Shown: positions 8,297 to 24,889 of the stretch, piece by piece | Layout of the letters: each line of letters starts with the position of its first letter | Position numbering within the stretch: position 1 is the first letter of the stretch | Origin: Sinorhizobium meliloti | GTDB taxonomy: Bacteria > Pseudomonadota > Alphaproteobacteria > Rhizobiales > Rhizobiaceae | NCBI RefSeq assembly: GCF_035610345.1 | Contig: NZ_CP141213.1 | Coordinates: 682,001 to 746,000, forward strand | Length of the DNA stretch: 64,000 nt | Direction: 5' to 3' | The notes under the pieces: model-generated | What the model was told of the DNA's origin: nothing | Databases searched by the model: none | Seen by the model: only the letters and a program-made list of their open reading frames with translations | Made by a program: the position numbers and the translations under genes

Positions 8297-9667
8297 CTAC
8301 GCGTCGCCACTCTTCGCGCCTGCCCGGTCGATAAAATCCGCCCGGTTGATCCCATGTCGCTGCAGCTTGTCGTAAAAAGTCTTGCGGGGGATGCCGAGGG
8401 CCTGCAGGGTCTCCTTGACGTCGCCGCGGTGCGCCGTGAGGGCCTGCTTGAGGATATCGGCCTCGTAGCGTTCCAATCTTTCCGGCAGGGTTGCTCCGCT
8501 TAAGGCGGGCGCTGCGGCCGGAGCTCCCAGGTTGCCCTCCACCCCCAGCGCGACCCGTTCGGCGAAGTGCGAAAGCTCGCGCACATTGCCCGGCCAGGAA
8601 TGCGTGGCCAGGTAGGCGCGCATGGCAGCCGAGATCGCGGGCACGTCGCGGCCGAAGCGCTCCGAGGCGCGGGCCAGGAAATGGGAGAAGAGGAGGGGGA
8701 TGTCGTCGCGCCGTTCGCGCAAGGGCGGGATCGAGAGCGTCACGACATTCAGCCGGTAATAGAGATCCTCGCGGAAATCGCCGCGCGCGGCCGGATCGCC
8801 GAGGTCGACCTTGGCTGCGGCGACGACGCGGATGTCGACGGGACGGGTCAGGTTGGTGCCGAGTGGGGTAATCTCGCGTGCTTCCAGCACGCGCAGCATC
8901 TTCACCTGGGTTGCCGGCGGCATCGCCTCGATCTCGTCGAGGAAGAGGGTGCCGCCGTTCGCATGCTCGATCCTGCCGACCCGCTTCTTGACGGCGCCGG
9001 TAAAGGCGCCGGGCTCGTGGCCGAAGAGCTCGCTTTCGATGACCGTTTCCGGCAGAGCGCCGCAATTCAGTGCGACGAAATTGCCGGTTCTGCGCCGGCT
9101 CCATTGGTGCAGCAGCGTGGCGACGACCTCCTTGCCGCTGCCCGTCTCGCCGGCGACCAGCACATCGACATCGGTGTCGGCGATGTGTTTCAAGGTCTGG
9201 CGAAGCCGCTCCATGGCCGGCGTCTGGCCGATCAGCGGCAGGCCTTCGGAGGCGGCTTCGGCCGCGCGGCGCAGCGCCCGGTTCTCCATGACGAGCCGCC
9301 GTTTCTCCTCTGCGCGCCGGGCGCTCTGGACAAGACGGTCGGCGGCAAACGGCTTGGCGATGAAGTCATAGACGCCGTCCTGGATCGCCTGCACCGCCAT
9401 CGGTATGTCGCCGTGTCCCGTGACAAGGATCATCGGCAGGTCGGGATCGAGCGACAGAACCTTGCGGAAAAGGGCGAGCCCGTCCATGCCCGGCATGCGG
9501 ATATCGCTGATGACGACGCCCGCGAAGTCGGCGGAAAGTTCGGAGAGCGCCTCCGTCGCGCTGGCAAAGGACGAAACGGTGAAGCCCGCAAGCTCGAGCG
9601 TCTGCTGCATCGCCTTGCGCAGATCGCGGTCGTCATCGATCAGGAACACGGATGGGGCGGCGCTCAT
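8297..9667 (-). CDS. dctD: C4-dicarboxylate response regulator DctD (sigma-54 activator)
   Basis: 456 residues with receiver, AAA+ and DNA-binding domains. The receiver has the acidic pair at 11-13, phosphoacceptor D55 ([10 protein letters not shown]) and K105 region (AKPF). The AAA+ domain has Walker A GETGSGKE at 173-180, the sigma-54 contact loop GAFTGA at 220-225 and Walker B LFLDEIE at 241-247. A Fis-type helix-turn-helix ends the protein ([19 protein letters not shown]). DctD phosphorylated by DctB activates dctA from the sigma-54 promoter at 11654. The gene starts 3 bases after the dctB stop, so the pair is one transcript. Confidence 0.96.
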
Positions 9668-9670
9668 CGC

Positions 9671-11536
9671 TCAGGCCTTCTTGAGATTGACGGTAAATGT
9701 CGTTCCGGAGGGACTGCTCTCGACCTCGATCGTGCCGCCATAGTCGGAGACGATCTCCTTGGAGATCGCGAGACCGAGGCCCAGCCCGTCTTCCTTCGAA
9801 GTGTTGAACGGCGTGAACAGCTCTTCGCGGACATCGGCCGCAATCCCCGGGCCATTGTCGGCGACGGTCAGCGCGATACCGCCGGCCACGTCCTCGCAGC
9901 GCACCCGGATCGCGCCGTTCTCGCCGTCGCCGATCGCTTCCAGCGCATTCTGCAGAAGGTTGATCAAGACCTGCTCCAGCCGGATGCGGTTGCCGAGTGC
10001 CTGGAGGTCGTCGGGCGGCAGATCGATGCGTATTGCGTCCATCCGTCCGGCAAAACGGCTTCGGAGCAACATGAGCGCACCCTCGACGACGTCCTTCATC
10101 GCGGTAGGCCCGGCCGCGAAATGGCCCTTGCGGGCGAAGCGGCGCAGTTCGTCGGTGATGGCGCCGACCCGGTCGGTAAGTTCGGCGATGCTTTCCATGT
10201 TCTCGGCGGCGGTGGAGCTCTGGCCACGGTCGAGAAAGGTGCGGGCATTATCGGCATAGGCGCGGATGGTGGCGACCGGCTGGTTGATCTCATGGGCAAC
10301 CCCGGCCGCGACCTGGCCGAGGATCGCCAGTCGGTTCGCCTGGACGAGGTCCTGCTGCACGGCCTGGAGCTTCTCGGTGGTCTGCCGGTGGTCGGCGATC
10401 TCGGTTTCGAGACGGTCGCGCGCCATGCGCAGGTCGCGCGTCCGCTCCTCGACGCTCGCCTCAAGCGCGTTGCGGGCCAGCCGCTCCTCGGCGCTGCGCA
10501 TGGCGACTACCTGGCGACGGCGCAGGAGCAATGCGGCAAGTGCGAGAAGCGGTACGAGCGCGGCAAGGGTGAGGAGCTGCGCTTCCCGCGCACCCGCGGC
10601 AAGCGGCGCCTTAAGCGGCGACAACTGCTCGAGCCGCCAGTTCGTCGACGGCACCATGGTTTCCACACGCAGGAAGGCTGCGTTGGAGTCGCCCGGCAGC
10701 AGGGCGTCCAGCGTGGAGGAGCCATCGGGCCGCGCTTCGATCTTCCGGAAAGGCAGCGGCAGCAGCGGTGCATCGCCGAACTGCAGGCTTTCGCGGATGG
10801 GTGCGAGCCGGTCTTCGGGGATCGGCTTCGTCGTCATGAAGCGCCAGGAGGGCAGGCTGGTGATGAGGACGATGCCGCGCCGGTCGGTGACATAGGCCGG
10901 CTTTCCGGAAACCTGCCAATCCGCCTCGACCCCGTCGAATTCGAGCTTGGCGACGATCACCCCCAGCGGACCGCCGGGCCCGTCGACGCGCCGGGAAATA
11001 TAAAGCCCGGGCCGCTTGCTGACCGTGCCCATGGCGAAGTGTTCGGCCATGCCGTCGCGCACGGCGAGCCGAAAATAATCGCGGAAGGCATAGTCGTTGC
11101 CGACGAAGCTCGTCGGCGCCTGCCAATTGCTGGCCGCGAGGGCCACGCCGTTCCGGTCGATCAGATAGATGACCGCGGCTTCGGCGCTTGTCGCCAAAGC
11201 CTCGAGCTTGCGGTTGATACGGTCGAGCGACTGCCTATCCGGCGAAAGCAACGCCCCACGAATGGCTGCGTCATCGGCGAGGACAAGCGGCAGGGCGCGC
11301 TGCCGTTCCACGACTGCCCGAAGAAGCGAGGCTTTCAGGCTGGCGTCGATCCGGCTCTGGCCGGCAAGGCCGGCGAGCGCCTGCGACCGCCCGTAGTCAC
11401 GCGCAAGAAGAAGGCCGGCCGCCAGAAGGACGAGCGCGACTGCCGCGAAAACCAGCCAGGACCGTCGGGCCCGGCTGCGAAGCGCATGCGGATCGTTCGC
11501 ATCTGCAGGAAGTCTGACCATGCGAGCATTGTGCAT
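9671..11536 (-). CDS. dctB: C4-dicarboxylate sensor histidine kinase DctB
   Basis: 621 residues when started at the ATG 11536-11534, the known length of rhizobial DctB; the frame is open 60 bases further, but that would run through the dctA control region. TM1 is residues 27-45 and TM2 is around 300-322, enclosing a periplasmic double-PAS sensor of succinate, malate and fumarate. A coiled linker leads to the kinase: H415 in [14 protein letters not shown], the N-box [10 protein letters not shown] at 526-535, DNGPGIA and [11 protein letters not shown]. In rhizobia DctB activity is also modulated by the transporter DctA, encoded divergently next door. The start codon lies inside a DctD-type binding site (11530-11547). 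Confidence 0.95.
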
Positions 11537-11547
11537 GATTTCGCCCA
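11530..11547. promoter_or_regulatory. Distal DctD upstream activating site (degenerate)
   Basis: TGTGCATGATTTCGCCCA matches the perfect site at 11563-11580 at 12 of 18 positions and begins exactly 33 bases (about three helical turns) before it. It covers the dctB start codon. Tandem DctD sites of unequal strength are known at rhizobial dctA. Confidence 0.6.
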
Positions 11548-11560
11548 GCGCGCCAGCGTG

Positions 11561-11582
11561 TATGTGCGGAAATCCGCACATA
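11561..11582. promoter_or_regulatory. Proximal DctD upstream activating site
   Basis: A perfect inverted repeat with 10-base arms TATGTGCGGA and TCCGCACATA around AA, about 80 bases upstream of the sigma-54 promoter of dctA. Its position and dyad symmetry fit the DctD dimer site described for dctA. Confidence 0.8.
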
Positions 11583-11653
11583 TCTACGAACAGCAAGCGT
11601 GCGTCGCTCCCAAAAATCTCACGAATTCAATCGCATCGGCCTCCGCGGCAAAC

Positions 11654-11669
11654 TGGCACGCATGTTGCT
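11654..11669 (+). promoter_or_regulatory. Sigma-54 promoter of dctA
   Basis: TGGCACGCATGTTGCT: GG at 11655-11656 and GC at 11667-11668 separated by 10 bases, an almost ideal -24/-12 element. It lies about 100 bases upstream of the dctA start and downstream of the two DctD sites. Confidence 0.92.
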
Positions 11670-11766
11670 CACCAGCTCCACAAGGCAGCCATTGCTGTCG
11701 ATCTTCGGAAAGCGGCCCGGGAGGCCCGGCATGTTGCCGGACTGGGCCTGCCACGTGGAGGATATC

Positions 11767-13092
11767 ATGATTATCGAACATTCCGCGGAGGTCCGCGGCA
11801 AGACACCCCTTTACCGCCATCTCTATGTCCAGGTGCTGGCCGCGATCGCCGCGGGCATCCTGCTCGGGCATTTCTATCCGGACATCGGCACGGAGCTCAA
11901 ACCGCTCGGCGACGCCTTCATCAGGCTCGTGAAGATGATCATCGCGCCGGTGATCTTCCTGACGGTCGCGACAGGCATTGCCGGCATGACCGATCTCGCC
12001 AAGGTCGGCCGCGTGGCCGGCAAGGCGATGATCTACTTTCTCGCCTTCTCCACCCTTGCCCTTCTCGTCGGCCTCGTCGTCGCAAACGTGGTCCAGCCGG
12101 GCGCGGGAATGCATATCGATCCGGCCTCGCTGGACGCCAAGGCGGTCGCGACCTATGCCGAGAAGGCGCACGAGCAGTCGATCACCGGCTTCCTAATGAA
12201 CATCATCCCGACGACGCTTGTCGGCGCCTTCGCCGAGGGCGACATCCTGCAGGTCCTGTTCATCTCGGTGCTCTTCGGTATTTCGCTGGCGATCGTCGGC
12301 AAGAAAGCCGAGCCCGTAGTCGATTTCCTGCAGGCGCTGACGCTTCCGATTTTCCGGCTCGTTGCGATCCTCATGAAGGCCGCCCCGATCGGCGCCTTCG
12401 GCGCCATGGCCTTCACCATCGGCAAGTACGGCATCGCCTCGATCGCCAATCTCGCCATGCTGATCGGTACCTTCTATCTGACGTCGTTTCTCTTCGTCTT
12501 CATCGTGCTCGGCGCGGTCGCACGCTATAACGGCTTCTCGATCCTCTCGCTCATCCGCTACATCAAGGAGGAGCTGCTGCTGGTGCTCGGGACGTCTTCC
12601 TCGGAGGCGGCGCTTCCGGGCCTCATGAACAAGATGGAGAAGGCCGGCTGCAAGCGCTCGGTCGTCGGTCTCGTCATTCCGACCGGCTATTCCTTCAACC
12701 TGGACGGCACCAACATCTACATGACGCTTGCGGCCCTGTTCATCGCCCAGGCGACCGATACGCCGCTCTCATACGGCGACCAGATCCTGCTGCTCCTCGT
12801 CGCGATGCTGAGCTCGAAGGGTGCGGCCGGCATTACGGGCGCCGGCTTCATCACGCTTGCCGCAACGCTCTCGGTCGTTCCCTCCGTGCCGGTCGCCGGC
12901 ATGGCGCTGATCCTCGGCATCGACCGCTTCATGTCGGAATGCCGCGCCCTGACCAATTTCGTCGGCAACGCGGTTGCGACGATCGTCGTGGCGAAGTGGG
13001 AAGGCGAGCTCGACCAGGCGCAGCTTTCCGCAGCTCTCGGCGGCGGGGCGTCTGCCGAAGCCATCCCGGCGCTCGTCCAGCCCGCCGAATAA
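11767..13092 (+). CDS. dctA: C4-dicarboxylate transport protein DctA
   Basis: 441 residues, the standard length, from the ATG at 11767 with GGAGG eight bases before it; the frame is open to 11599 but those codons cover the promoter. DctA is a secondary symporter of succinate, fumarate and malate with protons/sodium, in the glutamate/dicarboxylate (DAACS) family. Family motifs are visible: the helical hairpin serine-rich [12 protein letters not shown], the TM7 motif [12 protein letters not shown] and the re-entrant loop motif [13 protein letters not shown], then the TM8 [23 protein letters not shown]. It is needed for nitrogen fixation in nodules in related rhizobia. Expression depends on DctBD and sigma-54; a strong terminator follows. 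Confidence 0.97.
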
Positions 13093-13230: not shown

Positions 13231-14160
13231 TCAAATCCCGTGCAGCACCTGCGTCGCCTTCACTGCCGCCGAGGCCCGGTTTTCGACGCCGAGCTTCACA
13301 TAGATCTGTTCGAGATGCTTGGTGACGGTGCGCGCGCTCAAGCCCAGGATTTCGCCGATGTCGCGGTTGGATTTCCCTTTGGCGATCCACAGCAGCACCT
13401 CGGACTCCCGTTGGGTGAGCCGGAAGTGCTGGCGCAGCGTTTCGTCGTCGCTCAAGCCGTTCTCGGCCGTCAGCCGGAAGAGGTATTCATTGGCGCCGAC
13501 CGCGCCGAGATAGGAGATCTGCAGGCCCGTCTGGCTGGCGCGCTGCAGGGTGAAGGTCCCTTGCCTTTCGCCGGGACTGGTTTCCCGCTCCCGCATCCAC
13601 TCGGCAATGCGCCCGGCGACGAAGGCGAGACCGTCGTCGCTGCCGGTGGCCGCGTTGACGAGACGGGTCGCCTGCGGCGTCGACCAGCGGACCGTTCCAT
13701 CGCCTCGCACCGCCAGCAGATGCCGCCCCGCCGCGTCCAGGGCGACGCGGGCGCTCTGGGCGGAGCGCGCATTGGAGAGATGGACGCGGATGCGGGCGCG
13801 GAGCTCGTCGATATTGATCGGCTTGGTCAGGTAATCGACGCCGCCGGCTTCGAGCGCCCGCACCACATGCTCCGTCTCGGTAAGGCCGGTCATGAAGACC
13901 ACGGGCACCTGGGCGACGGAAGCATTCGCCTTCAGCCGGGTGCAGGTGTCGAAACCATCCATGCCGGGCATGACCGCATCGAGCAGGATGATGTCCGGCG
14001 TGATGCGATCGGCAATGTTGAGCGCCGCGTTGCCGGAGGTCGCGATCAATACGGAAAAGCCGGACTGTTCCAGCGCTTCGGTCAAAAAGCCGAGCGCCTC
14101 CGGTGAATCGTCGACGAGGAGTACGATGTCTCGCACGTTCGCTGCCTCAGGCACGGGCAT
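13231..14160 (-). CDS. LuxR/NarL-type response regulator paired with the permease-kinase
   Basis: 309 residues from the ATG 14160-14158, which overlaps the 3' end of the kinase gene by 14 bases. The receiver domain has the acidic residues DD at 17-18 and phosphoacceptor D61 (ILLDAVMPGMD), with TKPI near residue 111. A middle region of about 110 residues (VRGDGTVRWSTPQATRLVN) resembles a PAS-like fold. The C-terminal LuxR helix-turn-helix is clear: LTQRESEVLLWIAKGKSNRD and then GLSARTVTKHLEQIYVKLGV. Gene overlap and order mean it is the cognate partner of the hybrid kinase. Its targets are not shown by the sequence. Confidence 0.88.
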   Translation of the reverse strand: MPVPEAANVRDIVLLVDDSPEALGFLTEALEQSGFSVLIATSGNAALNIADRITPDIILLDAVMPGMDGFDTCTRLKANASVAQVPVVFMTGLTETEHVVRALEAGGVDYLTKPINIDELRARIRVHLSNARSAQSARVALDAAGRHLLAVRGDGTVRWSTPQATRLVNAATGSDDGLAFVAGRIAEWMRERETSPGERQGTFTLQRASQTGLQISYLGAVGANEYLFRLTAENGLSDDETLRQHFRLTQRESEVLLWIAKGKSNRDIGEILGLSARTVTKHLEQIYVKLGVENRASAAVKATQVLHGI

Positions 14161-17100
14161 TCGCCTCCCCGGCGAGCAGGCGTTTGAGGAAGGCGTCATA
14201 GCCCGCGAGATCGAATGCCCCGACATAGGCGCGCGCCGCCTCGGCGAAGGCTCGGTTGTCCGGGTTCAGGGCGATCTCCGTCAATTTTGCTTCGATGCCC
14301 CTCACGTAGCCGATTTCGCCGAGCTCGATCAATTCCTTCAAATGATGATGGCCGGGGCTCGCCACCGCAGGGGTCATGCCGGTGCCGGACGTTTCCTGCG
14401 GGCCGTCGTCGTAGATCCATTCGAGTTTCAGGTGGATCGCGAGCTTGTCGGTGAGCTGGCGCAGGCCGAAGGGCTTGGCAAGCGCATCGTTGTGGCCGAT
14501 GGCGCCGGCGGCCGAGCCGTCGCCAATATTGGCCGAAAGCATGATCGCCGGCGCGCTCTGGCCGCCTTCCCTCAGACGCATCACCAGATCCCAGCCGCTC
14601 ATGCCGGGCATGGAGATGTCGATCAGGAACAGGTCCGGTTTCGTATGTTCGACGAGCGCCAGACAGGCCGCCCCGCTCGCCGCCGCAAGAACGGTGAAAC
14701 CGAGCGGCGCCAGCAGCTCGCCCATCAGCTCGCGGTGGTCCGCATTGTCGTCGACGACGACGATCGTCCGACGTGGTCCTCGATAGGACTTGATCCTACG
14801 GACCGGGTCCTTGAGCGCGGCGGGCCGGTCGACGGCAGAGAGCATCAGCCGGACCTTGAAGGCCGTGCCCTTGTCCTTCTTGCTGGTGACGGAGATTTCG
14901 CCGCCGAGCGTCTGAGTGAGCAGGCGCGTGATGGTCAGGCCGAGACCGAGGCCCGGCATGCGATATTCCGCCTCGCCGCGCTGAAAGGGCTCGAAGATCC
15001 TGGGCAGGTCCTTCTCGCCGATGCCGCGGCCGCTATCCTCGATGGTGAAACTTGCGACCTGGCTGCGATAGGCGACGTCGAAGCGGATATGCCCCCGTTC
15101 CGTGAACTTCAGGGCATTGGAGAGCAGGTTGACGAGGATTTGCCGTAGGCGCTTGTCGTCGGTCCGCACATATTGCGGCAGCGAGGCTGCGCGGTTGTGC
15201 TCGAAGGCGATGCCCTTGGCCTGCGCCTGCGGGCGGAACATGTCGACGATCTGATCCAAAAAGTCCTGAATGTTGATCTCGTTGGAATAGACCTGCAGCT
15301 TGCCGGCTTCGATCTTGGAAATGTCGAGGAGGCCGTCGATCAGTCCGGAGAGATGGTCGGCGCTGCGCCTGATCGCCTTGATCGCGCCCTGCCGCGGCGG
15401 CGGTATCGTCTCGTCGCGCTCGAGGATCTGAGCGTAGCCGAGCACCGCATTGAGCGGCGTGCGCAGTTCGTGGCTCAGGCCCACGACATAGCGGCTCTTC
15501 GCACGATTGGCCGACTCCGCCCTTTCCTTCGCGTCCTGCAGCGCCGCGTCCGTCTTCTTGTGGGCGGCGATCTCCTTCAGGAGAGCCGTGTTCTGCCGGG
15601 AGGATTCCTCTTCCGCAACGACCCGGCTGTCATGAGCAAGCACGTAGAACCAGGACACGACGCCGGCAAGAATGGCGAAGACGAAGAAGACGATGGCGAT
15701 GGTCCGCTGGACGACGTCGGCGGTCTCGGGAGAGGCGGCCGTGGTCTGGTGAGCAATCATCGCCAGGATGACCCCGATGCCGGTAATAGAGATCACCGCC
15801 GAAATCGCGTAACGGCCGAGCCTTGTCGCGAGCTTTGCGACGACCGTTTCGGGCAGGACCGCCTTGGCCACGGTCGCGATCTGCGCGTTCAGACGCGCCT
15901 TCGGCTTGCACATGTCGTGGCAGCGGCTGTCGAGCGAACAGCAGAGCGAGCAGATCGGCGCCGCATAGGCCGGGCACCAGGCCATGTCCTCCGGTTCGAA
16001 CGGGTGCTCGCAGATCGAGCAAGTGATCTCGTTTTCGCGGAGCCAGCTCTTGCGCGGCTTGCGGGCGAGATAGAATTTCCCCTCCGTCCACCAGGCGATC
16101 AGCGGCGAGACGACGAAAGCCGTGACCAGCGCGATATAGGGTGCGAGCGAGGCGGCGATTTCGCCCGCCGCGCCGAAATGCGCGACGAGGGCGAAGAGCG
16201 TCGACACGCCCATGGTGCCGAGTCCGACGGGATTGATGTCGTAGAGATGGGCGCGTTTGAACTCGATTCCTGGCGGGGCGAGACCGAGCGGCTTGTTGAC
16301 GAAGAGATCGGCCGAGATCGTCGAGAGCCAGGCCATGGCGACGATCGAAAAGATACCGAGCGTTTCCTCCAGCAGGCGATAGATGCCGAGCTCCATCAGG
16401 AGGAGCGCGATCGCCACATTGAAGACCAGCCAGATGACGCGGCCCGGATGGCTGTGGGTGAGCCGCGAGAAGAAGTTCGACCAGGCGAGCGAGCCCGCAT
16501 AGGCGTTCATCACGTTGATCTTGAGCTGCGAGACGACGACGAAGGCTGCCATCAGCAGGAGCGCGGCCGTGTCCGACGGGAAGATGTAGCCGAAGGCCGT
16601 GTAATACATCTGCGCCGGGTCGGCGGCCCAGGTCGAGGGAACGCCGGTGCTGAGCGCCAGGACGACGAGAAAGGAACCGGCCAGCAGCTTCGGCGCGCCG
16701 ACGATCACCCAGCCGGAGCCGGCAAGAAAGACGGCGATGCGGTGGCGGAGCTTGCGCTCGCCCTCAGGCGGCAGGAAGCGCAGGAAGTCCACCTGCTCGC
16801 CGATCTGCGCCATCAGAGCGAAGATGACCGCCGAGGCAGCGCCGAATTCGACGAGATGGAACGGCGCGAGCGTGCCGGGGGGACCCGATGTGTGATGGAT
16901 GCCCGCATAGGCGAGCCACAGGCCTACCTTCTCCCAGTCCGCAAACGCGATGAAGACGAAGGGAAGAATGTTCAGGACGATCCAGAAGGGCTGCGTGACG
17001 AGCTGGAACCGGCTGATCAGCTTCACGCCATGAGTGACCAGCGGGATCACCATGACGGCGCTGACGATGTAGCCGATCCAGAGCGGTATGCCGAGCGCAA

Positions 17101-17527
17101 GCTCCAGCGCCCCGGACATGATCGAGGCTTCGATCGCGAAGAGGATGAAGGTGAAGCTCGCATAGATCAGCGAGGTTATCGTCGAGCCGATATAGCCGAA
17201 GCTCGCGCCGCGCGTGAGAAGGTCGATGTCGACGCCGTGACGAATGGCATAGCGGCTGATCGGCAAGCCGACGAGAAGGATCATCAGGCTGGCGACGAGG
17301 ATCGCGACGATGGCGTTGGTCGTGCCGTAGGACATGGTAATGGCACCGCCGATGGCTTCCAGCGCCAGGAAGGAGATGGCGCCGATCGCCGTCTGCGAAA
17401 TGCGCGCCGAGGAGAAGCGCCGCGCGCTCTTGGCGGTGAAGCGCAGCGCATAGTCTTCGAGCGTCTGGTTGGCGACCCAGCGGTTATATTCTCGCCGAAC
17501 GGGAATGATGCGCTGGCGTGCCGCCAT
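14147..17527 (-). CDS. NCS1 permease fused to hybrid sensor histidine kinase
   Basis: 1126 residues in one frame. Residues about 1-490 are a full NCS1 (cytosine/purine/hydantoin permease-like) transporter with roughly 12 hydrophobic segments. Residues 501-542 form a Cys-rich, zinc-ribbon-like module with Cys at 503, 506, 518, 526, 529, 530, 536 and 540. Two more membrane segments follow (about 573-593 and 609-631), then a coiled linker, HisKA with H686 in GLSHELRTPLNA, HATPase (NLLSNALKF, DSGRGIG, GLGLGLTITR), and a receiver with D970 (LIDISMPGM). A short C-terminal helical tail with GHHHLKEL follows. The design implies sensing through a transporter domain, as in CbrA-type kinases, which use an SLC5 domain. 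The ligand is unknown; nucleobases, hydantoins or thiamine-type compounds are possible. Confidence 0.9.
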   Translation of the reverse strand: MAARQRIIPVRREYNRWVANQTLEDYALRFTAKSARRFSSARISQTAIGAISFLALEAIGGAITMSYGTTNAIVAILVASLMILLVGLPISRYAIRHGVDIDLLTRGASFGYIGSTITSLIYASFTFILFAIEASIMSGALELALGIPLWIGYIVSAVMVIPLVTHGVKLISRFQLVTQPFWIVLNILPFVFIAFADWEKVGLWLAYAGIHHTSGPPGTLAPFHLVEFGAASAVIFALMAQIGEQVDFLRFLPPEGERKLRHRIAVFLAGSGWVIVGAPKLLAGSFLVVLALSTGVPSTWAADPAQMYYTAFGYIFPSDTAALLLMAAFVVVSQLKINVMNAYAGSLAWSNFFSRLTHSHPGRVIWLVFNVAIALLLMELGIYRLLEETLGIFSIVAMAWLSTISADLFVNKPLGLAPPGIEFKRAHLYDINPVGLGTMGVSTLFALVAHFGAAGEIAASLAPYIALVTAFVVSPLIAWWTEGKFYLARKPRKSWLRENEITCSICEHPFEPEDMAWCPAYAAPICSLCCSLDSRCHDMCKPKARLNAQIATVAKAVLPETVVAKLATRLGRYAISAVISITGIGVILAMIAHQTTAASPETADVVQRTIAIVFFVFAILAGVVSWFYVLAHDSRVVAEEESSRQNTALLKEIAAHKKTDAALQDAKERAESANRAKSRYVVGLSHELRTPLNAVLGYAQILERDETIPPPRQGAIKAIRRSADHLSGLIDGLLDISKIEAGKLQVYSNEINIQDFLDQIVDMFRPQAQAKGIAFEHNRAASLPQYVRTDDKRLRQILVNLLSNALKFTERGHIRFDVAYRSQVASFTIEDSGRGIGEKDLPRIFEPFQRGEAEYRMPGLGLGLTITRLLTQTLGGEISVTSKKDKGTAFKVRLMLSAVDRPAALKDPVRRIKSYRGPRRTIVVVDDNADHRELMGELLAPLGFTVLAAASGAACLALVEHTKPDLFLIDISMPGMSGWDLVMRLREGGQSAPAIMLSANIGDGSAAGAIGHNDALAKPFGLRQLTDKLAIHLKLEWIYDDGPQETSGTGMTPAVASPGHHHLKELIELGEIGYVRGIEAKLTEIALNPDNRAFAEAARAYVGAFDLAGYDAFLKRLLAGEANARA

Positions 17528-17643
17528 GGTCCCTCGTCATCTAGCAGTGCCGGCCGAATGCGCCAGCCGCCCATGTCGTAACACGGACGCGCGCCCCGGG
17601 AAATTGCTGCATTGCGGAAAACGTCGCAGACCGATCGCAGCCC

Positions 17644-19042: not shown

Positions 19043-19198
19043 AACCCCGGGCAGTAAGCCCAAGCTTCCTTCTTCCCCCCGCCACCTACGTAGAATGACG
19101 TATGTGCAGTGCAGCGCGGCTGCCCGATGCTCCCCGAGCAACGGCCATGGAGAACGGCCACTTGCCTTGCGGCGATCAGAACAAGGGGATTCAATCAA

Positions 19199-20491
19199 AT
19201 GACTATCAGGGCACGCGTCACCGGCGCATTTCTCGCTGCCGTCCTTTCGACGACGGCGTTCAACGGCGCCTTTGCGGCCGACGACACGATCAAGGTCGGC
19301 ATCCTGCATTCGCTTTCCGGCACCATGGCGATCTCCGAAACGACGCTCAAGGACGCCATGCTGATGCTGATCGAGGAGCAGAACAAGAAGGGCGGCCTGC
19401 TCGGCAAGAAGCTGGAAGCGGTCGTCGTCGACCCGGCCTCGGACTGGCCGCTCTTTGCCGAAAAGGCGCGCGAGCTCGTCTCCGTCGACAAGGTGTCCGC
19501 CGTCTTCGGCTGCTGGACGTCGGTGTCGCGCAAATCCGTGCTGCCGGTCTTCGAAGAGCTGAATTCCATCCTCTTCTATCCGGTCCAGTACGAGGGCGAG
19601 GAAAGCCAGCGCAACGTCTTCTATACGGGCGCCGCTCCCAATCAGCAAGCTATCCCCGCCGTCGACTATCTGATGGAGAACGAGGAAGTCGAGCGCTGGG
19701 TGCTCGCCGGCACCGATTACGTCTATCCGCGCACGACCAACAAGATCCTCGAGGCCTACCTGATCTCCAAGGGCGTCGCGCCCGAGGACATCATGATCAA
19801 CTACACGCCTTTCGGCCATTCCGACTGGCAGACGATCGTTTCCGACATCAAGAAGTTCGGCTCGGCCGGCAAGAAGACCGCGGTCGTCTCGACAATCAAC
19901 GGCGACGCCAACGTGCCGTTCTACAAGGAGCTTGCCAACCAGGGCATCAAGGCCGAGGACATCCCGGTCGTCGCCTTCTCTGTCGGCGAGGAGGAACTTG
20001 CCGGCCTCGATACCGGGCCGCTCATCGGACACCTCGCTGCCTGGAACTATTTCCAGTCGGTCGACAACCCGGCCAATGCCGCGTTCATCGAGACCTGGCA
20101 GGCCTACACCAAGAACGACAAGCGGGTGACCAACGACCCGATGGAAGCCCATTATATCGGCTTCAACATGTGGCTGAAGGCAGTCGAGAAGGCCGGCACC
20201 ACGGATACCGATGCCGTGCTCGACGCCATGATCGGGGTCTCGGTACCGAACCTTTCGGGCGGCTATTCGACGATGATGCCGAACCACCACATCACCAAGC
20301 CCGTGCTGATCGGCGAGATCCAGTCCGACGGCCAGTTCGAAACTGTCTGGGAAACGCCCGGCCTCGTCGTCGGCGACGAATGGTCGGACTACCTGCCGGA
20401 CTCGAAGGACCTGATCTCCGATTGGCGCGCGCCCATGTCCTGCGGCAACTTTAATGTGGCCACCGGCAAGTGCGGCGGCAAGGGTTCCTGA
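19199..20491 (+). CDS. urtA: Urea ABC transporter substrate-binding protein UrtA
   Basis: 430 residues from the ATG 19199 with AAGGGG ten bases upstream. The signal peptide MTIRARVTGAFLAAVLSTTA with cleavage after AFA (about residue 27) directs export. The mature part starts DDTIKVGILHSLSGTMAISE, the UrtA signature, and contains VFGCWTSVSRKSVLPVFEE, NSILFYPVQYEGEE and the Cys-containing C-terminus RAPMSCGNF. It captures urea (or short-chain amides) in the periplasm for UrtBC. A stem-loop at 20515 before urtB may raise its level over the membrane proteins. No urease genes are in the window. Confidence 0.93.
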   Translation: MTIRARVTGAFLAAVLSTTAFNGAFAADDTIKVGILHSLSGTMAISETTLKDAMLMLIEEQNKKGGLLGKKLEAVVVDPASDWPLFAEKARELVSVDKVSAVFGCWTSVSRKSVLPVFEELNSILFYPVQYEGEESQRNVFYTGAAPNQQAIPAVDYLMENEEVERWVLAGTDYVYPRTTNKILEAYLISKGVAPEDIMINYTPFGHSDWQTIVSDIKKFGSAGKKTAVVSTINGDANVPFYKELANQGIKAEDIPVVAFSVGEEELAGLDTGPLIGHLAAWNYFQSVDNPANAAFIETWQAYTKNDKRVTNDPMEAHYIGFNMWLKAVEKAGTTDTDAVLDAMIGVSVPNLSGGYSTMMPNHHITKPVLIGEIQSDGQFETVWETPGLVVGDEWSDYLPDSKDLISDWRAPMSCGNFNVATGKCGGKGS

Positions 20492-20631: not shown

Positions 20632-22245
20632 ATGTACCGCATCATCCAAACCGTGCTGGCTGCCCTGTTCCTCTTCGTTGCGATGGCTCCGGGGCTTCGC
20701 GCGGAAGAGGGACTGCGCGATCTGGTGAACGCGCTCGGCGAGGCGAAGCTGTCCGAGATGGACGAGCATATCGCGGCACTGGCAAGAACCGGAAAGCCCG
20801 AGGCCGTCGCCATCCTCGAGGCGCTCGGTGAAGGCGGGCTCTATGCCCGCAAGGCGGACGGCCAGGTCTTCCTGACGAAGGAGAGCGGTTCGAACCTGAC
20901 CCTCACGGATCCGATCTCCGGCGACAGCGCCGGCGAAGCGCCGAAGGCGGCACTTTCGAAGATCAGGGTGAACAACAGCGTGCGGCGCGCCGTGCGCACC
21001 GCCCTCGGCAGCCTGACGCTCCTCAGTCCCGATCGAAATCAGCGACTCAGGGCTGCGCAGTCGGTGCTGCAATCGGCCGATCCCGACGCGCTTGGCACCA
21101 TCGAGAATGCGCTGGCTGCCGAGAAGGACGGAGCCGTTCGTGCGGTCCTCGAACAGGCACGCGCCACGATGCTCCTTTTCTCCGACCGGCCGGTCGAGGA
21201 GAAGAAGGAGGCGGTGAGGCTGCTGGAGGAAAGCGGCGGGCGCGAGGCGCTTCCAATCCTTTCTGCCGCGCTCGGCTCCGCCGACGAAAGCCTGAAGCCG
21301 GACATCGAGGCGGCGCTCGCCAGCATCGAACAGGCGCAAGCCTTCTGGAATGCGGGCCAGAACATATGGTACGGCCTGTCGCTGGGCTCGGTGCTGCTGC
21401 TTGCGGCGATCGGCCTCGCCATCACCTTCGGAGTCATGGGCATCATCAACATGGCGCATGGCGAGATGGTGATGCTCGGCGCCTATACGACTTTCCTCGT
21501 TCAAGATGTGGTGCGCACCTCCTTTCCTCATCTTTTCGATTGGTCCCTGGCGATCGCGCTGCCGCTCGCCTTCCTTGTCACAGGCGCCGTGGGCCTCGCA
21601 CTGGAACGCGGCGTCATCCGCTTCCTCTACGGTCGCCCGCTCGAAACGCTGCTTGCCACCTGGGGCATATCGCTCATCCTGCAGCAGACCGTGCGGACGA
21701 TCTTCGGCCCTACCAACCGCGAGGTCGGCAATCCGTCCTGGATGTCCGGCGCCTTCGAGATCGGCGGACTGGCGATCACCTGGAACCGCCTCTGGATCAT
21801 CGTCTTTGCGCTTGCCGTGTTTGCAGCACTTCTCTTTCTGCTCAAGAAGACGCCGATGGGCCTGCAGATGCGCGCCGTAACGCAAAACCGGCGCATGGCC
21901 TCCTCCATGGGCATCCGCACGCCCTGGGTCGATGCGCTGACCTTCGCGCTCGGCTCCGGCATTGCAGGCATTGCGGGTGTGGCGCTTTCGCAGATCGACA
22001 ACGTCTCGCCGAACCTCGGGCAGGGTTACATCATCGACAGCTTCATGGTCGTGGTCTTCGGCGGCGTCGGCAATCTCTGGGGAACGCTTGTCGGCGCCTT
22101 CTCGCTCGGCATCCTCAACAAGTTCCTCGAGCCCTACGCCGGCGCCGTGCTCGGCAAGATCCTCGTGCTCGTGCTGATCATCCTCTTCATCCAGAAGCGG
22201 CCGCGGGGGCTCTTCGCACTCAAGGGCCGGGCGGTGGAAGCATGA
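20632..22245 (+). CDS. urtB: Urea ABC transporter permease UrtB
   Basis: 537 residues. A signal-like segment (residues 1-24, ending GLRAEE) is followed by about 210 residues of helical, periplasmic sequence with HEAT-like repeats, and then a LivH-type permease from about residue 245 (IWYGLSLGSVLLLAAIGLAI, FGVMGIINMAHGEMVMLGAY). The long N-terminal extension is normal for UrtB and separates it from LivH. MRAVTQNRRMASSMGI is the coupling loop to the ATPases. Its stop overlaps the urtC start (ATGA). Confidence 0.92.
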   Translation: MYRIIQTVLAALFLFVAMAPGLRAEEGLRDLVNALGEAKLSEMDEHIAALARTGKPEAVAILEALGEGGLYARKADGQVFLTKESGSNLTLTDPISGDSAGEAPKAALSKIRVNNSVRRAVRTALGSLTLLSPDRNQRLRAAQSVLQSADPDALGTIENALAAEKDGAVRAVLEQARATMLLFSDRPVEEKKEAVRLLEESGGREALPILSAALGSADESLKPDIEAALASIEQAQAFWNAGQNIWYGLSLGSVLLLAAIGLAITFGVMGIINMAHGEMVMLGAYTTFLVQDVVRTSFPHLFDWSLAIALPLAFLVTGAVGLALERGVIRFLYGRPLETLLATWGISLILQQTVRTIFGPTNREVGNPSWMSGAFEIGGLAITWNRLWIIVFALAVFAALLFLLKKTPMGLQMRAVTQNRRMASSMGIRTPWVDALTFALGSGIAGIAGVALSQIDNVSPNLGQGYIIDSFMVVVFGGVGNLWGTLVGAFSLGILNKFLEPYAGAVLGKILVLVLIILFIQKRPRGLFALKGRAVEA

Positions 22246-23417
22246 TCACCTCGTTTCTCGTCAAATCGCTGGATCGGACCATCGTCACGGCCGTCGCGAT
22301 CCTGCTGGCACTGGCCGTCACCGTTCCCGCGCTCAACCTCCTGACCGCCCCGGACCACCCGCTGCATGTGCCGACCTATCTGGTTTCACTCTTCGGCAAG
22401 TACCTGACCTATGCGCTCCTGGCTCTGGCGCTCGATCTCGTCTGGGGTTTCTGCGGCATTCTCTCGCTCGGGCACGCTGCCTTCTTCGCGCTCGGGGGCT
22501 ATGCCATGGGCATGTATCTGATGCGCCAGATCGGTTCACGCGGCTCCTACGGCAATCCGCTGCTGCCGGACTTCATGGTCTTTCTCAACTGGAAGGAGCT
22601 GCCCTGGTTCTGGCACGGCTTCGACATGTTCTGGTTCGCAGCGCTGATGGTGGTGCTGGTGCCGGGCCTCCTTGCCTTCGTCTTCGGGTGGTTCGCCTTC
22701 CGATCGCGCGTCAACGGGGTCTATCTCTCGATCATCACCCAGGCGATGACCTATGCGCTGCTGCTCGCCTTCTTCCGCAACGACATGGGTTTCGGCGGCA
22801 ATAACGGGCTCACGGATTTCAAGGACATCCTGGGCTTCAACATCCAGGCAGACGGAACGCGTGCGGCGCTTTTCGCCGCCTCCGCGCTGGCGCTCGCCGT
22901 TTCGCTCGTCGTCACCTCGGGCATCGTCCGCTCGAAATTCGGAAAGGTGCTGGTGGCGCTGCGCGACGCGGAAAGCCGCACCCGCTTCCTCGGCTATCGC
23001 GTCGAGCACATGAAGCTCTTCGCCTTCACGGTCTCGGCCATGATGGCAGGCGTCGCCGGCGCGCTCTACGTACCGCAGGTCGGCATCATCAATCCGGGCG
23101 AGTTCGCCCCCGCCAATTCGATCGAGGTGGTCATATGGACGGCGGTCGGCGGGCGCGGCACGCTGATCGGACCGATCGTCGGCGCGATCCTCGTCAACGG
23201 CGGAAAAAGCATCTTCACCGCCGCCTTCCCCGAATTCTGGCTCTTTGCGCTCGGCGGGCTCTTCGTCCTCGTCACGCTTTTCCTGCCGAAGGGGGTGGTC
23301 GGCACGGCGCAGAACTATCTGGCAAGCCGGCGCGCTTCCCACGCGGCGGCCCGGAAGCAAAGCGAGAGCGAAAAAGCGGCGACCCTTGCGGCCGCCGAAA
23401 CGATGGCCGCGGAGTGA
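22242..23417 (+). CDS. urtC: Urea ABC transporter permease UrtC
   Basis: 391 residues from the ATG 22242, which overlaps the urtB stop. A LivM-type permease with 8-9 membrane segments; GFCGILSLGHAAFFALGGYA near residue 70 and the UrtC-specific loop NNGLTDFKDILGF are present. VALRDAESRTRFLGYRVEHM is the ATPase coupling loop. The C-terminal 30 residues are hydrophilic and Ala/Glu rich. The frame is open much further upstream in this phase, but that is the shadow of urtB. Confidence 0.92.
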   Translation: MITSFLVKSLDRTIVTAVAILLALAVTVPALNLLTAPDHPLHVPTYLVSLFGKYLTYALLALALDLVWGFCGILSLGHAAFFALGGYAMGMYLMRQIGSRGSYGNPLLPDFMVFLNWKELPWFWHGFDMFWFAALMVVLVPGLLAFVFGWFAFRSRVNGVYLSIITQAMTYALLLAFFRNDMGFGGNNGLTDFKDILGFNIQADGTRAALFAASALALAVSLVVTSGIVRSKFGKVLVALRDAESRTRFLGYRVEHMKLFAFTVSAMMAGVAGALYVPQVGIINPGEFAPANSIEVVIWTAVGGRGTLIGPIVGAILVNGGKSIFTAAFPEFWLFALGGLFVLVTLFLPKGVVGTAQNYLASRRASHAAARKQSESEKAATLAAAETMAAE

Positions 23418-23422
23418 TCGTC

Positions 23423-24175
23423 ATGACCGGAAAGAAGCCCAGGAACCTGCTCTATCTCGATGGCGTCTCCGTCTCCTTCGACGGCTTCAAGGCGCTGAAC
23501 TCGCTCTCCTTCGTCGTGGAGCCGGGGGAATTGCGCGCGATCATCGGCCCCAATGGCGCCGGCAAGACGACGATGATGGACATCATCACCGGCAAGACGC
23601 GGCCGGATGAGGGCGAGGTCTTCTTCAAGGGCGACATCGACCTCACCAGGAGGGACGAAGCGGCAATCGCCGAGCTCGGCATCGGCCGCAAGTTCCAGAA
23701 GCCGACCGTCTTCGAGAACCATACCGTCTGGGACAATCTGGAGCTGGCGTTGAACCGCAGCCGCGGCGTCTTCGCGACGCTGTTCTATCGGCTGACGAGA
23801 GAGGACGAGAGCCGCATCGAGGAGATCCTTTCGACTGTGCGGCTCACGGCGCGCCGGGACGAACTCGCCGCCAATCTCTCGCATGGCCAGAAGCAATGGC
23901 TGGAGATCGGCATGCTGCTCGCCCAGGAACCGGAACTCCTGCTCGTGGACGAGCCGGTGGCCGGGATGACCGATGCGGAGACGGCGGAGACCGCGATCCT
24001 CCTGAAGGAGATCGCCAGGACGCGCTCGGTGATCGTCGTCGAGCACGACATGGGCTTCATCCGCGATCTCGGCGTCAAGGTCACCTGCCTTGCGGAAGGT
24101 TCGGTGCTGGCGGAAGGCTCGATCGATTTCGTCAGCAACGATCCGAAGGTGATCGAAAACTATCTCGGCCGATGA
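23423..24175 (+). CDS. urtD: Urea ABC transporter ATP-binding protein UrtD
   Basis: 250 residues from the ATG 23423, five bases after the urtC stop. LivG-type ATPase: Walker A GPNGAGKTT (near residue 44), the Q-loop FQKPTVFENHTVWDNLELAL, the signature LSHGQKQWLEIGMLL (the SHGQ variant is typical of UrtD), Walker B LLLVDEPVAGMTD and the switch His in VVEHDMGF. It pairs with UrtE to drive UrtBC. Confidence 0.93.
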   Translation: MTGKKPRNLLYLDGVSVSFDGFKALNSLSFVVEPGELRAIIGPNGAGKTTMMDIITGKTRPDEGEVFFKGDIDLTRRDEAAIAELGIGRKFQKPTVFENHTVWDNLELALNRSRGVFATLFYRLTREDESRIEEILSTVRLTARRDELAANLSHGQKQWLEIGMLLAQEPELLLVDEPVAGMTDAETAETAILLKEIARTRSVIVVEHDMGFIRDLGVKVTCLAEGSVLAEGSIDFVSNDPKVIENYLGR

Positions 24176-24193: not shown

Positions 24194-24889
24194 ATGCTGA
24201 ACGTCGAAAACGTCAGCCTGCATTACGGCGCCGCGCAGGCGCTTCGCGACGTCTCGTTCAAGGCGGAGATGGGCAAGATCACCTGCGTGCTCGGCCGCAA
24301 CGGCGTCGGCAAGTCGAGCCTGCTCAGGGCCGTCACCGGCCAGCATGCGGTGACGAGCGGCACGATCTCTTTCAACGGCACGCCGCTCGACGGCATGGCG
24401 CCCTTCCGACGCGCCAAGCAGGGCGTCGGCTACGTGCCGCAGGGCCGCGAGATATTTCCCCTGCTGACGGTGAAGGAGAATCTCGAAACCGGATTCGCTC
24501 CGCTGAGGCGGGCTCAACGCTCGATCCCCGACGACATCTTCAGCCTGTTTCCGGTACTTCAAACCATGCTCGGCCGGCGGGGCGGCGACCTTTCGGGCGG
24601 CCAGCAGCAGCAGCTCGCGATCGCCCGCGCTCTCGTGACACGCCCGAAAATCCTGGTGCTGGACGAGCCGACCGAGGGCATCCAGCCGTCGATCATCAAG
24701 GACATCGGCCGCGCGATCAAATATTTGCGAGATTCGACCGGCATGGCGATCCTGCTCGTGGAGCAATATCTCGATTTCTGTCGCGAGCTTGCCGACCACG
24801 TCTATATCATGGACCGCGGGGCTTTCGTGCATGAGGGGCCGCCGGAGACGCTCGACACGCCGCAAGCGCGCCGGCATCTAACCGTTTGA
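24194..24889 (+). CDS. urtE: Urea ABC transporter ATP-binding protein UrtE
   Basis: 231 residues, LivF-type ATPase. Walker A GRNGVGKSS, the Q-loop region YVPQGREIFPLLTVKENLET, the signature LSGGQQQQLAIARAL, Walker B LVLDEPTEGIQPS and the switch region LLVEQYLDF. GGGAGGAATTG gives a strong ribosome site before the ATG. It is the last gene of the urt operon; nothing with the form of a strong terminator follows directly. Confidence 0.93.
   Translation: MLNVENVSLHYGAAQALRDVSFKAEMGKITCVLGRNGVGKSSLLRAVTGQHAVTSGTISFNGTPLDGMAPFRRAKQGVGYVPQGREIFPLLTVKENLETGFAPLRRAQRSIPDDIFSLFPVLQTMLGRRGGDLSGGQQQQLAIARALVTRPKILVLDEPTEGIQPSIIKDIGRAIKYLRDSTGMAILLVEQYLDFCRELADHVYIMDRGAFVHEGPPETLDTPQARRHLTV

Follow-up and report, generated by a model that had tools for sequence, protein, structure and literature searches.

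The window analysed here, a 64,000-nucleotide stretch of the genome of Sinorhizobium meliloti, encodes a hybrid histidine kinase with an N-terminal NCS1-fold permease, followed by the gene of a LuxR-type response regulator. Comparison of the sequence with its relatives suggests that the kinase is probably a receptor of urea and short amides, whose regulator would drive the urt and fmd genes. It is likely to detect urea-like compounds and to turn on the genes that use them, as urea or formamide genes lie beside it, often together with a shared DNA site.

The kinase gene (14147..17527, minus strand) is a single frame of 1126 residues with no internal stops. All its domains are encoded on the same strand, in the following order: the permease (residues 27-485, 16073..17449), a module with eight cysteines (residues 503-540, 15908..16021), a two-helix membrane hairpin leading into the coiled coil of the kinase (residues 570-635, 15623..15820), HisKA with the phospho-acceptor H686 (residues 677-742, 15302..15499), HATPase_c (residues 790-896, 14840..15160), and a receiver with D970 (residues 922-1029, 14441..14764). 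The last three domains match Pfam profiles above the cut-off and contain the required histidine and aspartate, which makes the protein a hybrid histidine kinase; H686 and D970 are invariant in all 81 aligned copies. Thus the fusion and the places of the kinase domains and of both residues, given in a preliminary description of this DNA made from the letters alone, are real. No linker family was matched in the Pfam search of the kinase protein, STAC not being among the profiles used. No frame break between the permease and the kinase was observed, apart from one truncated, permease-less homologue, L174 (genome G582). It has 618 residues, a divergent regulator gene and a degenerate CCNLDVCCTNNC stretch, and is possibly a sensor that lost its carrier.

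The response regulator gene (13231..14160, minus strand) encodes 309 amino acids with a receiver and a LuxR/GerE domain (Pfam). It overlaps the kinase gene by 14 bases, as had been described, if the start is the ATG at 14160; the longest frame opens at 14226. A regulator gene directly 3' of the kinase gene is present in 80/80 genome loci (the best 80 of 593), which supports the LuxR-type partner described. Two short kinases, L185 and L187 (885 and 880 residues), have no receiver; they lie beside a formamidase and an AmiS/UreI channel, and no regulator of this type was found above the threshold near by. In the window, the kinase and regulator pair is adjoined by a dctB/dctD-like sensor and sigma-54 regulator beside the dicarboxylate carrier gene dctA (8297-13092). 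Another replicon of the same genome contains a fragment (L032, G000:C3:960623-961030) that is 96% identical to kinase residues 14-149 and has one internal TAG; this is a degraded, incomplete copy of the permease region.

Residues 27-485 take the NCS1 fold, as the AlphaFold model matches CodB (7qoa) and Mhp1 (2jln, 4d1a, 2x79) by VIA-align/Foldseek. The NCS1 profile PF02133 does not match kinase residues 1-503 at E<=10, nor does it match a free-standing permease of the same branch from Tsukamurella, but it does match a free relative that is about 40% identical to the permease part (38.1 bits at a cut-off of 23.5). The assignment to NCS1 is therefore made by fold, with the free relative as a bridge. 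Not all NCS1 members are sodium coupled, according to a part of PMC13390362. In passages of PMC9379551, the CodB residues W108 and F204, which sandwich the base, are called conserved throughout NCS1. In the alignment of 48 of the 128 collected kinases, the position of W108 is L/F129 (L in 10, F in 38) and that of F204 is L238 (L in 47, F in one). The position of CodB Q105 is T126, and that of Mhp1 Q121 is E133 (48/48). Eight residues, T126, E133, Q241, D247, R250, K336, N341, and Y343, are kept in all 48. Thus the aromatic nucleobase clamp of NCS1 is replaced by a conserved Thr/Glu/Leu/Gln set. The sodium-site threonines of CodB, T278/T279, align to V/L/I/M and M/T/A or, without gaps, to K336/I337, the register of TM8 being uncertain. 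The core pocket is common to kinases from urea and amide contexts; no single position changes in every urea clade. Of the complete NCS1 permease that had been described, the fold stands, whereas the profile match and the aromatic clamp, and with them the usual binding-site residues (now L/F129, L238, T126, E133), do not.

The cysteine module has the spacing C-x2-C-x11-C-x7-C-x2-C-C-x5-C-x3-C and contains eight of the nine cysteines of the protein. All eight, at identical spacing, are present in 128/128 collected kinases, the window copy included, and are invariant in the alignment of 81 kinases; the degenerate stretch of the truncated L174 is the only exception found. They are equally invariant in kinases beside nickel urease and in those beside formamidase. 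Fold matches of the module are weak and mostly to zinc fingers. The module, inferred to face the cytoplasm, probably serves as a structural zinc coupler and is a putative two-zinc finger. It is not special to the kinase fusion, since half of it (C503, C506, C526, C529) is kept in two free-standing permeases of the same branch, from Klebsiella and Acinetobacter. The module that the preliminary description pointed out between carrier and kinase is thus conserved, but it is not unique to the fusion. The suggestion made there, that metal or redox state at the module gates the signal, gains no support from its invariance across urease and formamidase contexts, its probable cytoplasmic location, and the weak zinc-finger matches.

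The kinase is present in 29 of the 30 sampled genomes of the genus. Within the class, matches were found in 23/289 genomes, 20 of them (counting the own genome) along almost all of the 642 residues, and within the phylum in 58/398 genomes, 52 with full-length or near full-length copies. The best matches in the plasmid collection are 97-99% identical and lie on replicons of S. meliloti and relatives; Klebsiella plasmids carry the same kinase, with 342 matching records. The 128 collected kinases are the window copy, those of 80 genome loci, 37 from further genomes, and 10 from plasmid records. The 80 loci lean to Rhizobiaceae, as the best 80 of 593 were taken. Left out of the 128 were L164 (a permease on its own, lacking the module), L174 (permease-less, with degenerate cysteines), and L167 (cut by a contig end, with the cysteine module intact). 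The permease of L164 (genome G490) is NCS1-like but more distant and has a two-part nitrilase-type gene next to it; it shares E133, Q241, D247, and R250. The same genome also holds a formamidase-side kinase.

Genes for uptake or hydrolysis of urea or short amides (urt, urease, fmdA, amidase) were observed in 122 of 130 loci, namely 80 and 40 genome loci and 10 plasmid records. By context, 86 loci were labelled urea, 35 amide, one mixed, and eight none, where the amide label means a formamidase, an amidase/nitrilase, or the Klebsiella type of UrtA. In the flanks (up to 10 kb) of the 80 genome loci (the best 80 of 593), UrtA was found in 76, UreD in 39, and UreA in 34. All but three of the 40 further loci (L164, L167, L174) have urt, urease or amide genes, which makes 37. 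The eight loci with no such context are three complete kinase loci (L091, L042, L193), three cut by contig ends (L081, L105, L167), the free permease L164, and the truncated kinase L174. In the Azospirillum record (L042), genes of the xanthine dehydrogenase family lie about 2 kb away. In Acinetobacter (L193:4287-9563), where no urea or amide gene was recognised near by, a kinase copy is divergent from a free permease of the same branch. None of eight ordinary NCS1 genes, collected as a control by a PF02133 search of 76 genomes of the class (a ninth match, below the cut-off, was excluded), has urea or amide neighbours, four of the eight stretches being shortened by contig ends.

The plasmid-borne loci and other records show the same association in several arrangements. 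The kinase gene is divergent from urtABCDE on plasmids of Klebsiella (with formamidase, on a conjugative plasmid), Burkholderia (with formamidase, FmdB, and nitrilase), Methylosinus (with urease), and Shinella. It lies behind a urease operon with urt near by on a Novosphingobium plasmid, is divergent from urease with no urt within 9 kb in a Mitsuaria record, and is divergent from formamidase with an AmiS/UreI protein on a Paracoccus plasmid. A free-standing permease is located directly behind ureG in Klebsiella, and another near fmdA in Tsukamurella. Four genomes (G457, G521, G542, G665) contain two kinase copies each, one by urease and one by formamidase. Urease-side copies with no urt match in a stretch of about 20 kb also occur (L153, L169, L182, L184). 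On a tree built by a quick method from 65 kinases and three free permeases, the urea/amide label needs at least five changes, and each context group alone needs six, compared to a mean of 22-23 after shuffling (0/500 shuffles were as low). Such a neighbourhood can be inherited by descent, even if the tree calls for those changes of label. Passages of PMC13209695 suggest that urt beside fmdA imports formamide.

The shared DNA site is the palindrome TACGTNNNNTGACGTA, with the 7-2-7 structure TACGTCA-NN-TGACGTA, first noticed in 12 kinase upstream regions. At one mismatch or less, it has 104 matches in 91 of 120 loci (2.44 Mb), and only one match in Markov-simulated sequence of the same size; the count of 104 is descriptive, as the motif was chosen on part of these loci. 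All 104 matches fall in the interval from 60 bases inside to 500 bases upstream of a gene start, 96 of them at urtA or the kinase gene and eight at fmdA. The 29 loci without the palindrome notably include urease-side copies. In some of the urease-side copies without it (L169, L179, L184), another palindrome, about ATACGCC, a gap, and GGCGCA, can be seen by eye and is perhaps their operator.

The tests on the window, on its own genome, and on kinase-free genomes were made after the motif had been chosen. The only exact copy in the window and in the 6.63-Mb genome, TACGTAGAATGACGTA (19087..19102, plus strand), is located 97 bases before the ATG of urtA and is the predicted operator of the regulator. 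The genome contains four more copies with one mismatch. The count is not enriched there, with five copies at one mismatch or less against 19 for the reversed control and one exact copy against one; in the window, the two matches at two mismatches are reached in 14 of 100 shuffles. Thus the case for the operator rests on position. Within the class, the exact palindrome occurs in 11 of 278 genomes, 4/19 with the kinase and 7/259 without it. In the four with the kinase, it precedes urtA or is no more than about 300 bases upstream of the kinase gene, and none of 24 urtA loci in kinase-free genomes of the class has it upstream at one mismatch. In 1.5 kb upstream of the class-level kinases (L010-L028), it was found in 4/19 at one mismatch and in 11/19 at two. 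Operators of the NarL type consist of two heptamers in a 7-2-7 arrangement. The palindrome resembles them in having two inverted TAC-led heptamers two bases apart and a LuxR/GerE regulator, and the arrangement thus fits a regulator of the GerE type. It differs in the heptamer itself, TACGTCA, and is a predicted operator only.

The urt operon of the window is on the plus strand, opposite to the kinase gene. The frame of urtA, encoding the urea-binding protein, opens at 19109, but its likely start is the ATG at 19199 (19199..20491), 1.7 kb from the kinase, with ArsR, AHSA1, and GFA genes between. It is followed by the permease genes urtB (20632..22245) and urtC (22242..23417, beginning with MITSF and assigned from the urt gene order) and the ATPase genes urtD (23423..24175) and urtE (24194..24886, as far as its tblastn match reaches). 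A urease gene was not found anywhere in the window. A 21-base sequence at 17602..17622 (minus strand), which lies 75 (near edge) to 95 bases (far edge) upstream of the start of the kinase, is identical to the published PhaR-binding site of SMb20609. Parts of PMC12542648 report that PhaR binds the SMb20609 promoter at a site 95 bases before that gene (pSymB 1622073-1622093). The kinase and regulator of S. meliloti 1021 are 97% and 98% identical to the pair in the window, and the position of the PhaR site agrees with 1622168, where the tblastn match starts; hence the window genes are the orthologues of SMb20609 and SMb20610. The same parts of that paper call the SMb20609 kinase functionally uncharacterised, give its increase in phbC phaR relative to phbC (log2 0.72 in low phosphate, 3.38 in TY), and place SMb20609, SMb20610, UreA, and UreB in one protein module (PMC12542648).

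The proposed mechanism is as follows. The permease domain would bind urea, formamide or another such small amide; in its binding pocket, T126, E133, Q241, and the Asn/Lys of TM8 would stand in for the nucleobase clamp. Ligand binding or alternating access would shift the C-terminal helices of the permease, and the cysteine module, as a structural zinc finger on the cytoplasmic side, may together with the helix hairpin relay this change to the coiled coil of the kinase. Phosphate would then pass to D970, to the partner regulator, or to both. The phosphorylated regulator is predicted to bind TACGTCA-NN-TGACGTA and to switch on urtABCDE here, and fmdA and the kinase gene itself in relatives. In Sinorhizobium, PhaR would also repress the kinase gene, as published for SMb20609, and so tie urea use to carbon storage.

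The case for urea or amides as the signal, strong but genomic throughout, derives from the urea or amide genes around most copies, the pocket without the clamp, the free permeases by urease and formamidase, and the paralogue pairs split by substrate. Another possibility is that the kinase controls urt, fmd, and ure genes but uses its permease-like domain to read a general nitrogen signal, the ammonium released by hydrolysis, or the state of the membrane or pH. The core pocket is identical in urea- and amide-type copies, as if there were one common signal, and a part of PMC5424462 mentions that NtrBC controls urea assimilation in Rhodobacter capsulatus. Yet a permease fold beside the matching uptake system points to the substrate itself. 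So do the free permeases of this branch, which lie within or next to urease and formamidase clusters and, in one case, next to a kinase copy, and the four genomes with paralogues split by substrate. We thus consider a general signal unlikely.

It is still less probable that the permease domain is a mere anchor and that the kinase reads ligand-loaded UrtA or FmdD docking from outside. UrtA is indeed near the kinase in 76 of the best 80 loci of 593, but the four urease-side copies mentioned have no urt within about 20 kb, the Mitsuaria record has none within 9 kb, and the conserved residues sit at the expected ligand site. Least credible of all is the reading of the preliminary description, that a nucleobase, hydantoin or a relative is sensed and that metal or redox state gates the signal. 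The NCS1 fold, the invariance of the cysteines, and the Azospirillum locus with its xanthine dehydrogenase family genes and no urea genes agree with it. A nucleobase or hydantoin ligand is ruled against by the absent clamp and the urea or amide genes in 122/130 loci, and two free permeases keep half of the cysteine module.

Among the closest known systems are CbrA, CrbS, and RpuS, proposed transceptors in which, as here, a transporter is joined via a small linker module to a histidine kinase for nutrient use. The CbrA-like reading of the preliminary description is borne out, as are the LuxR-type partner and a conserved cysteine module that connects the carrier with the kinase. Passages of PMC13022988 provide the SLC5-type histidine kinases as a precedent for transporter-fused kinases. 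These have an SLC5 carrier and a helical STAC linker, whereas the present kinase has an NCS1-fold carrier, the eight-cysteine module with a membrane hairpin, and urea or amide genes near by. In the ammonium sensor kinase Ks-Amt5, the precedent for Amt-type sensor kinases (PMC8534201, in part), a transporter fold likewise became a receptor on a histidine kinase, with a nitrogen compound as the ligand (proposed in our case), but the fold is Amt and the ligand ammonium. CodB and Mhp1 have the aromatic substrate clamp that the kinase has not kept, and PF02133 does not match its permease part. The free "cytosine permease" behind ureDABCEFG in Klebsiella and its Acinetobacter homologue are 39-42% identical to the permease part and have the same pocket and half of the cysteine module, but lack a kinase and end soon after ICSLC. 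The kinase would work like CbrA or Ks-Amt5 but belongs to neither; it is a variant of the transporter-fused histidine kinases.

A broader reading, to which we commit ourselves only tentatively, is that these kinases are a widespread and distinct class of their own, serving as receptors for urea and short amides. An NCS1 permease adapted to urea or amides may have brought its own zinc finger, the four-cysteine tail of free permeases from urease clusters, which would have become the eight-cysteine coupler that joins the carrier to the kinase. Through repeated duplication and changes of target, urea-type and formamide-type sensors may have arisen, sometimes both per cell, and much of the family would read TACGTCA-NN-TGACGTA as its operon code.

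In soil and in urine, urea is a major source of nitrogen. No bacterial kinase sensing urea directly was found among the matches listed in the open-access literature searched for one. The Klebsiella UrtABC-AmiF cluster is treated as a possible urinary fitness factor in a preprint (PMC13060141); in its main text, the terms "histidine kinase", "two-component" and "response regulator" are absent, though the cluster appears to be the same urt-formamidase one. SMb20609/SMb20610 is a named candidate urea sensor in a model strain, with a predicted operator and a predicted pocket, and thus the question of urea sensing can be tested at once. If our reading is true, it would add a second carrier fold beside the SLC5-type transceptors, and the natural pairs of urea and formamide paralogues would allow one to study how a transporter becomes a receptor.
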